Position numbers and translations under genes: made by a program. From Cellulomonas sp. WB94 (GTDB lineage: Bacteria; Actinomycetota; Actinomycetes; Actinomycetales; Cellulomonadaceae): 64,000 nucleotides of DNA. Shown piece after piece: positions 43,996-47,945 of this stretch (its first letter is position 1; each line of letters begins with the position of its first letter). The stretch spans positions 62,001 through 126,000 of the forward strand of contig NZ_QEES01000002.1 in assembly GCF_003115775.1 (NCBI RefSeq), in the 5' to 3' direction. Below the pieces are notes generated by a model. That model was not told the origin of the DNA, did not search any database, and was given only the letters and a program-made list of their open reading frames with translations.

Positions 43996-44723
43996 GAGCC
44001 GCCGCCGTCGTCTGCGAGGAGGCGGCGAGCGACCCTGACGTCGGGGCCGAGCCGGACCAGGTGAGCGACGAGGTCGTCCGCGGCGAGGTGGAGCGCCTCG
44101 TCCGTGACCGCTCCGAGAGCGTCGAGGATGAAGAAGGCGGCCGTGGTGTCGTCGCTCAGCTGGGTGCGACGAGCCTGGCGCCAGTTCCACCGTCGACAGG
44201 TCACCCCTGCCTCGTCGCACCACACGACCTCACCCGGCTCCGGGTGCTCGACCACGTCGGTACCTCCGCCGACCGTGTCGAAGGTTTCCCTGCCCGCGGC
44301 GCGGACCAGCCGCGGCGAGCCGCTGTACCGGTTCAGGTCCTCCCCGCCGATCGGGATCTGGTGCAGCACCGACACCGCGTTGTAGAGGTCCGTGAGCCGG
44401 TTGACACGCGGAAGTCCCTCCGCCGCGCGCCGCAGGAGCGCCTCCAGGCTGTTGCGGGTTCGTTGCGGCTTCGCTCCGAACGCCCGGTAGGCCTCCCGCC
44501 ACTGCGCCACGTGCGGGACCTCCTCCACTGCGGTGCCCGCCAGCGCCTCACAGGCAGCGTCCTGCGCGGCCTGGATCAGCGCGTCGCCGGCCGCGTCGCC
44601 CGGTCCGGGGACGAGCCCGTCGACCGCCACGAGCATCGCCCGGTAGTCGGGCCGCAACCCGAGGACGTCCGCCGCGACGAGGCCGCCTGCGAGGAAGTCG
44701 TCGAGCCGCGTGGGCTCATCCAT
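43992..44723 (-). CDS. B3/4-domain protein (PheRS beta-subunit editing-domain relative)
   Basis: 243 residues from ATG 44723. The block PRVNRLTDLYNAVSVLHQIPIGGEDLNRYSG and EVVWCDEAGVTCRRWNWRQA are characteristic of free-standing B3/4-domain proteins. The B3/4 domain of PheRS hydrolyses mischarged Tyr-tRNA; the role of free-standing members is not settled. It overlaps both neighbours (8 bp with the regulator, 4 bp with the exporter), so the three act together, possibly in amino acid analogue detoxification and export (inference). Confidence 0.85.
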   Translation of the reverse strand: MDEPTRLDDFLAGGLVAADVLGLRPDYRAMLVAVDGLVPGPGDAAGDALIQAAQDAACEALAGTAVEEVPHVAQWREAYRAFGAKPQRTRNSLEALLRRAAEGLPRVNRLTDLYNAVSVLHQIPIGGEDLNRYSGSPRLVRAAGRETFDTVGGGTDVVEHPEPGEVVWCDEAGVTCRRWNWRQARRTQLSDDTTAAFFILDALGAVTDEALHLAADDLVAHLVRLGPDVRVARRLLADDGGGS

Positions 44724-45321
44724 CGTGGACCTCCGACCGACGCCCTGAACCGACGCCCGGCTCGAAGACGGCCAACGAGAACCTCGCCTCCTGCGTGCCC
44801 GGGTTTCCATATGAGTGCGCCACGTCGCCGCCGAACGCGACCGCGTCCCCCGCCTCGAGCGAGACCGAATGGTCGCCGACGGTGATCGTGATGCTGCCCT
44901 GCTGGACCTGCACGAGCTCCTTGGTCCCCGCGGTGTGGGCCTCGCTCACATGGGTGTCCCCCGCGCCCAGCGTCCAGTCCCACAGCTCGACCACGTCGGG
45001 CTTCTCGGTGCCGGCCACCAGCACCCCGCGCCCGCCGGACTCGCTGCGCCACAGCACCGCGCCCTCACCCCGGCGTGTCACCGACAGCGGCCTGGGGCCG
45101 GACGGCTCGACCAACGACGGCAGCCCGACGCCGAGCGCGTCGCTGATCCTCAGCAGGGTCCCCACGCTCGGGTTGACCGCACCCTGCTCGACGTTGACCA
45201 CCATCCGACGGCTGACCCCGGCAACGTCCGCCAGCTGGTCCAGCGTCCATCGCCGCGACTGCCGCGCCTGTCGCACGCGCGCACCGATCGTCACAGCCAG
45301 ACCCGCGGTCCCGTCTTCCAT
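44716..45321 (-). CDS. XRE-family regulator with C-terminal cupin domain
   Basis: 201 residues from ATG 45321. The N-terminal helix-turn-helix (RVRQARQSRRWTLDQLADVAGVSRRMVVNVEQGAVNPSVGTLLRI) is followed by a cupin domain (HVSEAHTAGTKELVQVQQGSITITVGDHSVSLEAGDAVAFGGDVAHSYGN). Such proteins sense a small ligand and repress their own operon. The start lies within 10 bases of a TATGGT -10 box and has no ribosome site, so the mRNA is probably leaderless. The three GTGCAC repeats upstream are likely its operator. Confidence 0.9.
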   Translation of the reverse strand: MEDGTAGLAVTIGARVRQARQSRRWTLDQLADVAGVSRRMVVNVEQGAVNPSVGTLLRISDALGVGLPSLVEPSGPRPLSVTRRGEGAVLWRSESGGRGVLVAGTEKPDVVELWDWTLGAGDTHVSEAHTAGTKELVQVQQGSITITVGDHSVSLEAGDAVAFGGDVAHSYGNPGTQEARFSLAVFEPGVGSGRRSEVHDG

Positions 45322-45322
45322 G

Positions 45323-45351
45323 AGTGCACCATAGTGCACTCCGCGTGCACT
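45323..45351. promoter_or_regulatory. three phased AGTGCACY repeats and overlapping promoter of the XRE-cupin operon
   Basis: AGTGCACC (45323-45330), AGTGCACT (45333-45340, a perfect palindrome) and CGTGCACT (45344-45351) are spaced 10-11 bp apart, i.e. on one face of the helix. The minus-strand TATGGT at 45328-45333 overlaps the first two copies, so binding there would block transcription. The assignment to the adjacent regulator is inferred. Confidence 0.55.
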
Positions 45352-45422: not shown

Positions 45423-46064
45423 ATGTCCGTCGTGACGACGCTCCTCGAACTCCACGACCGTGTCCTGCTGACCGGCGACTCCGTCACCGAGTGGGGCCGC
45501 GACTTCTCCGACCCGACCAGCCTCGGGCACGGCTACGCCTTCGTCGTCGCGGCGCTCGCGGGCGCCCGGCGGCCCGACCTCGACCTGACGTTCCTCAACC
45601 GCGGGGTCGGAGGCGACACGGCCGCCCTGCTGCGCGCGCGGTGGGCGGACGACGGTCTCGCGCTGGCCCCGACCGTCGTCTCGGTCATGATCGGCATCAA
45701 CGACACGTGGCGCCGCTTCGACGCGGGCCGGGCGACGTCGACCGAGTCCTACGAGTCAGACCTGCGCGCCGTCCTCGACTCGGCCCGGGACGAGCTCGGC
45801 GCGCGGCTCGTGCTGATCGAGCCGTTCCTCGTCCCCGTGAGCGACGACCAGCACGGCTGGCGCACCGACCTCGATCCCCGGATCGGCGTCGTGCGTCGCC
45901 TCGCGGCCGAGTACCGCGCGGTGCTCGTCCCCGCCGACGGCCTCTTCGCCGCAGCCGCCGTGCGCACGTCGCCCGAGGTGTGGACTGCCGACGGCGTGCA
46001 CCCCACGCCGGCCGGGCACGGGCTGCTCGCTCAGGCGTGGCTCGACGCCGTCGGGCTGGGCTGA
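45423..46064 (+). CDS. SGNH/GDSL-family esterase or lipase
   Basis: 213 residues. Block I GDS is at residues 18-20 (LLTGDSVTEWGRD), with Gly in NRGVGGDTAALL, Asn in VMIGINDTW and the Asp-His pair in ADGVHPTPAGH. There is no signal peptide, so it is cytoplasmic; sugar- or acyl-esterase activity of the rhamnogalacturonan acetylesterase-like subgroup is plausible. ATG 45423 is used; GTG 45432 is a possible later start. The substrate is not predictable. Confidence 0.9.
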   Translation: MSVVTTLLELHDRVLLTGDSVTEWGRDFSDPTSLGHGYAFVVAALAGARRPDLDLTFLNRGVGGDTAALLRARWADDGLALAPTVVSVMIGINDTWRRFDAGRATSTESYESDLRAVLDSARDELGARLVLIEPFLVPVSDDQHGWRTDLDPRIGVVRRLAAEYRAVLVPADGLFAAAAVRTSPEVWTADGVHPTPAGHGLLAQAWLDAVGLG

Positions 46065-46076
46065 CGACCGACTGCT

Positions 46077-46105
46077 TTGCACGCGCCCCGCGGGGCGGCT
46101 ACCGT
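46077..46105 (+). promoter_or_regulatory. sigma70-type promoter of the cysK leader
   Basis: TTGCAC (46077-46082) and TACCGT (46100-46105) are separated by exactly 17 bp. Transcription would begin near 46112, about 35 bases before the leader-peptide start codon and 300 before cysK. Confidence 0.6.
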
Positions 46106-46146
46106 CGTAGCGTCTGCGGTCCGTCACGAGGAGGAAGGTCGGAACC

Positions 46147-46221
46147 ATGCACCGCTGCATGTCCGCCACTCCTGTCGCAGCGTCGACCCGCCGGACCGCC
46201 GCCAGCTGTCGCTGTCTCTAG
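46147..46221 (+). CDS. 24-residue cysteine-containing leader peptide upstream of cysK
   Basis: ATG 46147 is preceded by a strong GAGGAGGAAGG ribosome site about 10 bases upstream. The peptide has three cysteines (positions 4, 21 and 23) and ends ...SCRCL-stop, i.e. two Cys codons within four codons of the TAG at 46219-46221. The stop codon abuts the left arm of a 10-bp stem. Cys-containing upstream reading frames that sense cysteine are known from mycobacterial sulfur genes. Here the peptide should let translation of the leader report Cys-tRNA supply. It is too short for ordinary gene calling. Confidence 0.65.
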   Translation: MHRCMSATPVAASTRRTAASCRCL

Positions 46222-46411
46222 AGCGCTGGCTGCCGCACGGCGGCGCGCCCCGTGAGGGCCGCCCCCCTGCCAGCGCTCGCCCCGGCCGGCACCTCCCCGG
46301 CATACCGGCGCCAGATCCCGCGTTACAGCCCCTGCGCCACGCCCCAGGCACCCCGACACACCCTTCGCCCGCGCGTCCACCCCGACCCGCGACACCAGAC
46401 AAGAGGACGAC
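46221..46411 (+). promoter_or_regulatory. cysK leader: stem-loop followed by C-rich, G-poor tract (putative attenuator)
   Basis: GAGCGCTGGC at 46221-46230 pairs perfectly with GCCAGCGCTC at 46269-46278; GGCGGC (46239-46244) can pair with GCCGCC inside the loop. The following 46320-46400 is very rich in C and poor in G, like Rho-utilisation sites. Ribosome stalling at the leader's Cys codons would change folding or Rho access before cysK. Confidence 0.5.
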
Positions 46412-47347
46412 ATGGCACGCATCTATGACGACGCGACCCAGCTGGTCGGCAACACGCCGCTGGTCCGCATCAACAAGCTGACCGAGGGCGTGGGCGCCAC
46501 GATCGTCGGCAAGCTCGAGTTCTACAACCCGGCCAGCTCGGTCAAGGACCGCATCGGCGTCGCGATCGTCGACGCGGCCGAGGCGTCGGGCGAGCTCAAG
46601 CCCGGCGGGACGATCGTCGAGGCCACGAGCGGCAACACCGGCATCGCACTGGCGTTCGTCGGTGCGGCGCGCGGCTACGACGTGGTCCTGACGATGCCCG
46701 ACTCGATGTCCAAGGAGCGCCGCGCACTGCTGCGTGCCTACGGCGCCGAGCTCATCCTCACGCCGGGTGCCGCGGGCATGAAGGGCGCCGTCGACAAGGC
46801 CAACGAGATCGCCGCCGAGCGTCCGGGTGCGATCCTCGCGCGCCAGTTCGCGAACGCCGCGAACCCTGAGATCCACCGCCGCACGACGGCCGAGGAGATC
46901 TGGGCCGACACCGACGGCAAGGTCGACATCCTCGTCGCGGGCATCGGCACCGGCGGGACGATCACCGGCGTCGGGCAGGTGCTCAAGGCGCGCAAGCCCG
47001 GCGTGCAGATCATCGCCGTCGAGCCCGCCGAGTCGCCGATCCTCAACGGCGGCGCTCCGGGCCCCCACAAGATCCAGGGCCTGGGCGCGAACTTCATCCC
47101 GGAGATCCTCGACACCACGGTCTACGACGAGGTCTTCGACGTCGACACCGACACGGCCGTCGCCGTCGCGCGGCGCGCCGCCAAGGAGGAGGGCCTGCTC
47201 GTCGGGATCTCCTCGGGTGCCGCGCTGCACGCCGCGATCGAGGTCGGCAAGCGCCCGGAGAACGCGGGCAAGCTCATCGTCGTCATCATCCCGTCGTTCG
47301 GCGAGCGGTACCTCTCGACGATCCTCTACGCCGACCTGCTCGACTGA
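46412..47347 (+). CDS. cysK: cysteine synthase A (O-acetylserine sulfhydrylase)
   Basis: 311 residues. PLP-binding Lys45 is in [11 protein letters not shown], the substrate loop is TSGNTGIAL and the phosphate-binding loop GTGGTITG. It makes cysteine from O-acetylserine and sulfide. AGAGGA precedes ATG. cysE follows 16 bp downstream, so the two form the serine-to-cysteine operon and may also form the cysteine synthase complex. Expression is probably controlled by the upstream leader peptide. Confidence 0.97.
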
Positions 47348-47363
47348 CCGGGGCGCCCACACC

Positions 47364-47945
47364 GTGTCCCTTCGCACGTTCTGGTCCGTCCTGCGGGACG
47401 ACCTCGAGGTCGCGCTCCGTGAAGACCCCGCAGCGCGCACGCGCTTCGAGGTCGCCGTCGCGTACCCGGGTGTGCACGCGGTGTGGGCCTACCGGCTCGC
47501 GCACAGGATGTGGCACCAGCCCGGCCTGCAGCTGCCCGCTCGCCTGCTCTCGCAGGCGACGCGGGCCGCCACGGGCATCGAGATCCACCCGGCCGCCAAG
47601 CTCGGCCACCGCCTGTTCATCGACCACGGCATGGGTGTCGTCATCGGCGAGACCGCCGAGGTCGGGGACGACGTCGTGCTCTTCCACGGCGCGACCCTCG
47701 GCGGGCGCTCGATGCGGCATGGCAAGCGGCACCCGACTCTCGGCGACCGCGTGGTGGTCGGAGCGGGCGCGAAGATCCTCGGTCCCGTCCGCATCGGTGA
47801 CGGCGCGCAGATCGGCGCGAACGCGGTCGTCGTCAAGGACGTCCCCGCCGGCGCGGTGGCGGTCGGCGTCCCGGCCGCGGTGCGCCCGCGCCCCGCGGCG
47901 TGGTCGATCGACGCCGACTTCCTCGACCCGGCGATCTACATCTGA
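47364..47945 (+). CDS. cysE: serine O-acetyltransferase
   Basis: 193 residues from GTG 47364. The short N-terminal helical part leads into the left-handed hexapeptide-repeat helix: [46 protein letters not shown]. It acetylates serine with acetyl-CoA, giving the CysK substrate. The short form without the long N-terminal domain of E. coli CysE is common in actinobacteria and Bacillus. Confidence 0.96.

Follow-up and report, generated by a model that had tools for sequence, protein, structure and literature searches.

In attenuation of the tna type, a small open reading frame is followed by a region on which Rho can load, and the occupancy of the transcript by a ribosome near the stop codon decides whether transcription terminates; in the case of tnaC, it is the nascent peptide that senses free Trp. 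This Rho-dependent mechanism of Escherichia coli is named in the study of Seliverstov et al. 2005 (PMC1262725), which, in its treatment of cysteine genes, predicts Cys leader peptides upstream of cys operons in Mycobacterium and Propionibacterium acnes, as well as upstream of cbs in Bifidobacterium longum, and presents these systems as having polypyrimidine motifs and no terminator, with Rho being proposed to act. Tests of mycobacterial attenuators built on polycysteine leaderless small open reading frames (sORFs) came later and are attributed to Canestrari et al. 2020, as cited in PMC13236596 and PMC9094748, with the former also describing, from the same work, masking of the ribosome site in cysteine genes of M. 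smegmatis. Classical attenuators that alternate between a terminator and an antiterminator are represented in actinobacteria by trp and ilvB, in the accounts given in PMC1262725 and PMC13236596.

We consider here a locus upstream of cysK for which an original prediction, made from the sequence, had suggested translation-coupled attenuation reporting Cys-tRNA charging, with mycobacterial Cys upstream open reading frames (uORFs) as known examples. That precedent does exist, but is older than the prediction implied, dating back to 2005 in PMC1262725. No earlier description of such a system for the present lineage was found in the literature searched, and neither "cysK" nor "cysteine" occurs in the main text of a survey of RNAs in 50 genomes (PMC11109978).

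The cysteine-codon frame upstream of cysK-cysE

The window, by which we mean the whole 64,000-nucleotide stretch of DNA analyzed, contains cysK, encoding cysteine synthase A (46412–47347; NCBIfam TIGR01139, E 5e-135, above cut-off), followed by cysE, encoding serine O-acetyltransferase (47364–47945; NCBIfam TIGR01172, E 4.4e-69, above cut-off), with both genes and the elements of their upstream region, from the promoter-like pair onward, lying on the forward strand. The upstream neighbor, a GDSL hydrolase gene, ends at 46064, and on its far side a gene with HTH and cupin domains (44716–45339) runs leftward, with no connection to the candidate attenuator noticed. In the intervening region, we find a promoter-like pair (TTGCAC at 46077–46082 and TACCGT at 46100–46105, 17 nt apart), a purine-rich Shine-Dalgarno (SD) region read from the sequence as GGAGGAAGG (46130–46138), a uORF of 24 codons encoding the putative Cys leader peptide MHRCMSATPVAASTRRTAASCRCL (46147–46221 with its stop codon; supported by ORF translation and family comparison), a perfect 10-bp stem, a C-rich and G-poor untranslated leader, and the SD site of cysK, which reads GAGGA (46403–46407). 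The promoter pair, SD, 24-codon frame with three Cys codons, stem and C-rich leader were all present as the original prediction had given them. We note that neither cysK (46412–47344) nor cysE (47364–47942) contains a single Cys codon, such that the operon would stay translatable during cysteine starvation.

For comparison with related loci, one sample was fetched by cysK homology alone, and a second was defined by a stem pattern, namely AGAGCGCTGGC, 35–65 nt and GCCAGCGCTC, which was matched in 44 of 200 family genomes, once in each, with the reversed control pattern giving no match. Codon counts were taken from 37 of these 44 matches, of which 36 are distinct. Start-finding gave 115 loci, 71 with the motif TGTCNNTAGAGC and 44 without it, leaving out L111 and L162, whose starts it did not settle; L111 was brought in by coordinates for the count of Cys-tailed frames in the cysK-homology sample. 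Exact duplicates were collapsed for leader composition, for the rank of the uORF tail as a pairing partner, and for the codon and promoter counts in the stem-pattern loci.

The Cys codons of the uORF are numbers 4, 21 and 23 (at 46156, 46207 and 46213), and codon counts over the stem-pattern loci point to the terminal stretch TGT-CGC-TGT-CTC-TAG (46207–46221) as the candidate sensor. In all 36 distinct loci, the second codon before the stop is TGT and the stop itself is TAG, as compared to a TGT fraction of 0.123 among Cys codons and TAG stops in 33/212 ORFs in the background. At least one additional in-frame Cys codon is likewise present in 36/36, and these additional codons are frame-specific, at 72/360 in frame versus 10/360 and 12/360 in the other two frames. 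What precedes this biosynthetic operon is, then, a short ORF with an SD-like motif and a start codon, and with Cys codons near its stop.

The same holds where loci were retrieved irrespective of the stem: a Cys-tailed frame lies at most 330 nt upstream of cysK in 42/42 family loci fetched by cysK homology. In the control screen of other genes of the same records, the raw counts were 28/175 for a Cys-tailed frame and 10/175 for a frame accompanied by the stem; removing 10 control entries with tails identical to cysK-leader tails of the same loci reduced these counts to 18/165 and 0/165, respectively. Within the genus, all seven genomes examined (that of the window included) have cysK, and in 7/7 the leader contains a promoter-like pair and a Cys-tailed uORF, with the same stem in the same place; the body of the peptide and the interior of the hairpin are variable. 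The 24-residue peptide matched no NCBIfam model. In L036–L038, the uORF tail contains TGCTGTC twice (giving CCRTLCCR, CCRTHCCR and CCPTHCCR), as a duplication of the sensor stretch would produce. A short alternative CGCU/AGCG pairing within the uORF tail, seen by eye, was dropped since several loci break it.

Related genomes also retain a promoter-like pair ahead of the frame, with TTGNNN-16/18-TANNNT found in 34 of 35 distinct leaders, that of the window included, where base shuffles would lead one to expect 0.2; the one exception is L075. A scan of 46040–46420 with a stricter sigma-70 consensus found no promoter, and our assignment of a candidate promoter thus rests on this comparison. In 36/36 distinct stem-pattern loci, an SD-like motif accompanies the start codon (by a lenient definition and with no control run). 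When also taking into account that about 41 nt separate the uORF start codon from the −10 element in the window, the uORF is, judged by its sequence, probably not leaderless.

Pairing at the stop codon and its distribution

The stem consists of a left arm, GAGCGCTGGC (46221–46230), and a right arm, GCCAGCGCTC (46269–46278), recognized as an inverted repeat and supported by the pairing tests below. It begins on the G of the TAG stop codon, so stop and stem overlap by one base, an even closer arrangement than the original prediction of a stop codon abutting the stem. Perfect 10-bp inverted repeats with a loop of 20–65 begin at 19 of the 64,000 positions of the window. The stem region has a folding energy of −39.7 kcal mol–1 (z −2.1 relative to shuffles), and the leader as a whole is not unusually structured (z −1.05).

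At least seven uninterrupted pairs (allowing G-U) start from the third base of the stop codon in 36/42 family cysK loci, compared to 6.5% of 4264 positions elsewhere in these leaders. The stem is shorter or interrupted in L098, L240 and L249, and none was found in L124, L242 and L244; since these six of the 42 loci are without an uninterrupted stem of seven, the hairpin is not indispensable. We observe that L242 and L244, which belong to two genera, keep a strongly Cys-tailed uORF (ending in CCCCPGCR and CRCCR), with the uORF stop 163 and 170 nt ahead of cysK, and it is possible that the hairpin has been lost or replaced in these loci.

The pairing was examined in an alignment, A1, of 53 of the 71 TGTCNNTAGAGC-bearing loci, in which the outer stem is 94.6% paired, compared to 28–42% for slid versions. 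A1 contains 35 double-changed cells versus 5.9 in shuffles (a number reached in 0/500), and changes on both sides occur in six of the ten pairs, as reached by 17/500 shuffles; these figures lean upward, as rows were chosen by the motif TGTCNNTAGAGC and right arms as the best-pairing stretch. An arm-swap test on the cysK-homology sample was therefore added as a fair test. Among the 26 of 42 family loci in this sample with a left arm other than GAGCGCTGGC, the locus's own arm forms at least seven Watson-Crick pairs in 17, compared to 7.0% of 896 swapped arms; when G-U pairs are allowed, the values are 20/26 and 23.7%, respectively. Examples of such variant stems are GAGCATTGA/TCAATGCTC in L120 and GAGCGTCGG/CCGACGCTC in L123. 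Sequence comparison thus shows that the stem keeps pairing where its sequence changes and, together with the codon counts above, that the UGU-NNN-UAG-hairpin spacing ahead of cysK is fixed.

The distribution of the element was assessed with a covariance model, R1, built on 53 motif-bearing loci of several families. At E ≤0.001, R1 has matches in 145 of 200 family genomes, covering 21 of 25 genera, with the matches nearly always being single (two each in G032 and G076); in the genome of the window, there is one clear match (E 2e-10), the next best having E 0.85. Of 58 cysK loci from the order's other families, 14 show a Cys-tailed frame and 10 show both this frame and the stem. Across 394 genomes of the class, R1 matches eight at E 0.01, among them the genome of the window and one further family member; the remaining six, which are weak matches (L174–L179, E 0.002–0.009) in one genome from another family of the order and five from outside the order, have no cysK-like N terminus within the 2.3–3.1 kb fetched. 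A longer exact stem pattern gave 50 matches in named species genomes, of which 47 lie before cysK and three are in fetched stretches that end first; these matches fall in Cellulomonas, Actinotalea, Demequina, one record labeled Cellulosimicrobium and some metagenome bins, a distribution by which the window probably comes from a relative of Cellulomonas. Searches of Rfam with the window, including a permissive search of 46000–46500, gave no credible match and none above a gathering threshold.

The proposed switch and its alternatives

We propose that this element is a cis-acting, ribosome-mediated attenuator responding to Cys-tRNA charging, with Rho ending transcription in the C-rich leader, a reading to which we attach somewhat better than even confidence. 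Transcription would begin shortly upstream of the short uORF, whose ribosome site is separate from that of cysK. With cysteine in good supply, a ribosome would pass the Cys codons and depart at UAG, after which the hairpin on the stop codon would close and the polymerase would go on to an untranslated, C-rich stretch of leader, where Rho could load and stop transcription ahead of cysK or soon after its start. With charged Cys-tRNA scarce, the ribosome would halt at the Cys codons, and a halt on the last UGU, two codons before the stop, would bring its front edge to the first pairs of the hairpin, such that the hairpin would be held open and the polymerase could escape into cysK-cysE. Translation of the uORF, the part played by the hairpin and the action of Rho are inferred by us, as is the direction of the switch, for which the function of cysK-cysE suggests on when starved.

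The attenuation suggested by the original prediction gains support from sequence comparison, in that relatives searched for a lack of the frame, the Cys codons or the stem were found to keep them, along with the promoter-like pair preceding the frame, with variant stems still pairing and TGT retained at its place before the stop. Folding calculations are also consistent with the proposed role of the hairpin: when 5 nt in the left arm are set as unpaired, the median pair probability of the rest of the stem falls to 0.02, versus 1.00 when free (68 loci), and the prediction is that a ribosome holding the last Cys codon in its A site, which from its footprint length would extend over the first 5 nt of that arm, abolishes the stem. 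We note, however, that a stall at an earlier Cys codon would leave the hairpin untouched, making the exact gating step the weakest link in this proposal.

The candidate Rho-loading region of the window (46279–46396, 118 nt analyzed) has a C content of 0.551 and a G content of 0.229, and its C minus G value of 0.322 exceeds those of all 121 control regions. Over 63 distinct leaders, from stem to cysK, the means are 0.495 for C and 0.267 for G, and C minus G is at least 0.123 in 63/63 (median 0.227). The controls, which are crude ORF calls among which some cysK leaders may remain, have a median of 0.008, with the 99% point at 0.212. This difference has p = 4e-27, a value overstated by the relatedness of the sequences. 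The 63 leaders are those left of the 71 after removal of four duplicates and four with <40 nt (L064, L065, L088 and L093), the latter also being C-rich (0.27–0.52). The leader is, then, C-rich, G-poor and untranslated, and the genome encodes Rho, for which reason we favor Rho. The stem-to-cysK gap is nevertheless <80 nt, which is short for Rho loading, in 13/71 loci, and <60 nt in five. As such, of the Rho access raised by the original prediction, the compositional side holds in every leader considered, but the length of the leader does not always accommodate it, and Rho acting in the C-rich leader is favored but not secure, with C-richness being a signature and not proof.

The same short leaders that weaken the case for Rho strengthen that for a mechanism using the same Cys uORF as sensor, in which the hairpin would itself be an intrinsic terminator whose U tract is weak or missing and which the ribosome on the last Cys codon would block, with no need for Rho. 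In L093, L088, L064 and L065, the gap between stem and cysK is just 38–45 nt, and uORF and stem are retained, which makes these loci a natural test of the need for a long C-rich leader. The fixing of the hairpin base at the stop codon would also suit such a terminator, as would the TTTTTCTT that directly follows the stem in one locus (L120, the same locus as L250). Against this stands the lack of a U tract in the window and in 70/71 loci, such that the terminator hairpin plus U tract of a classical attenuator is seen in L120 alone, and a terminator scan of 46040–46420 found no U-tailed hairpin. We consider this mechanism unlikely, if credible. As an observation in its own right, L250, from a lower-GC relative, has the look of an ordinary intrinsic terminator, with the stem followed by its T-rich stretch, and L255, from the same genus, has GTTTCCC after the stem, without a full U tract. 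No mutually exclusive antiterminator was noticed in the alignment and folds, which were viewed unsystematically.

Translation attenuation, in which the uORF tail or the hairpin would mask the cysK ribosome site until a stall on the Cys codons, is improbable in our estimation. In the minimum-energy fold of the window's leader, the SD and start codon of cysK do pair with the uORF tail, and the tail ranks slightly above average among leader windows as an SD partner (median rank 0.34); however, it falls in the best tenth of windows in just 8/78 loci, about the level of chance, and in the window's own leader one third of windows pair as well. Marking the tail as ribosome-occupied opens the SD in 10/78 loci, compared to 11/78 for a control block, and the site does not open when the stem arm is blocked (median change −0.009, 68 loci). 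The spacing of uORF stop and cysK ranges over 89–284 nt. In silico, the window's own fold thus makes such masking plausible, but three comparative tests do not support it. A hairpin serving protein binding or RNA processing, with the uORF incidental, is very improbable: UGUCNNUAG directly before the stem is indeed fixed at the nucleotide level in 36/36 loci, beyond what the peptide needs, but the Cys enrichment is frame-specific, SD-like motif and start accompany it in all 36, and Cys-tailed frames persist where the stem is missing.

Returning to the ribosome-mediated attenuator, we tentatively suggest, as a possibility that falls well short of likely, that UGU-C-NN-UAG-hairpin constitutes a distinct RNA module with the stop codon incorporated into the hairpin base, in which a ribosome held on UGU would physically prop open a hairpin that otherwise serves as a U-tract-free terminator, alone or with Rho acting on a C-rich leader, and in which wobble-read UGU, in preference to UGC, would sharpen the sensing of Cys-tRNA.

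Comparison with described attenuators

Under this proposal, Cys-codon attenuation, known from mycobacteria, would also operate in a further family of actinobacteria, where the RNA design is fixed. It raises two testable questions, namely whether U-tract-free hairpins act as ribosome-gated terminators in high-GC bacteria, with or without Rho, and whether attenuators are tuned by codon choice (UGU vs UGC). The locus with a U tract, the very short leaders, and the genera with a uORF but no stop-abutting hairpin provide ready comparisons. Separately, we observe that the metL leader peptide listed before metNIQ of Streptomyces lividans (PMC8079986, Table 4) ends in CMCRRMCAF, with three Cys, and might sense cysteine instead of methionine.

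Among described systems, the trp and ilvB attenuators, as presented in PMC1262725 and PMC13236596, share with this element an RNA hairpin placed after a uORF whose regulatory codons lie close to the stop, but the U tract is absent here. In common with tna, a small ORF is followed by a candidate Rho-loading region, and a ribosome near the stop would decide termination; unlike in tnaC, the peptides vary, and the Cys codons alone are constant. The mycobacterial polycysteine sORFs are likewise Cys-rich uORFs, said in the citing accounts (PMC13236596, PMC9094748) to control the downstream operon by cysteine; in contrast to those leaderless frames, the present uORF has, by its sequence, an SD and a start about 41 nt past the −10 element, and in silico there is no support here for a masked ribosome site downstream. 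The systems of PMC1262725 are similar in having a short frame with Cys near its stop, placed before a cysteine gene, no terminator, and a proposed role for Rho. They differ, as far as they are characterized in that source, in having no conserved hairpin capable of termination, where the present loci have a pairing-conserved hairpin starting from the stop codon, and in target and lineage, which are here cysK-cysE and the Cellulomonadaceae with their neighbors. The principle is therefore known from mycobacterial Cys uORFs, the module is absent from Rfam and NCBIfam, and the layout is new, in keeping with the expectation that the idea extends to a cysK operon organized differently, with an SD, a stop-abutting hairpin and cysK-cysE as its target.
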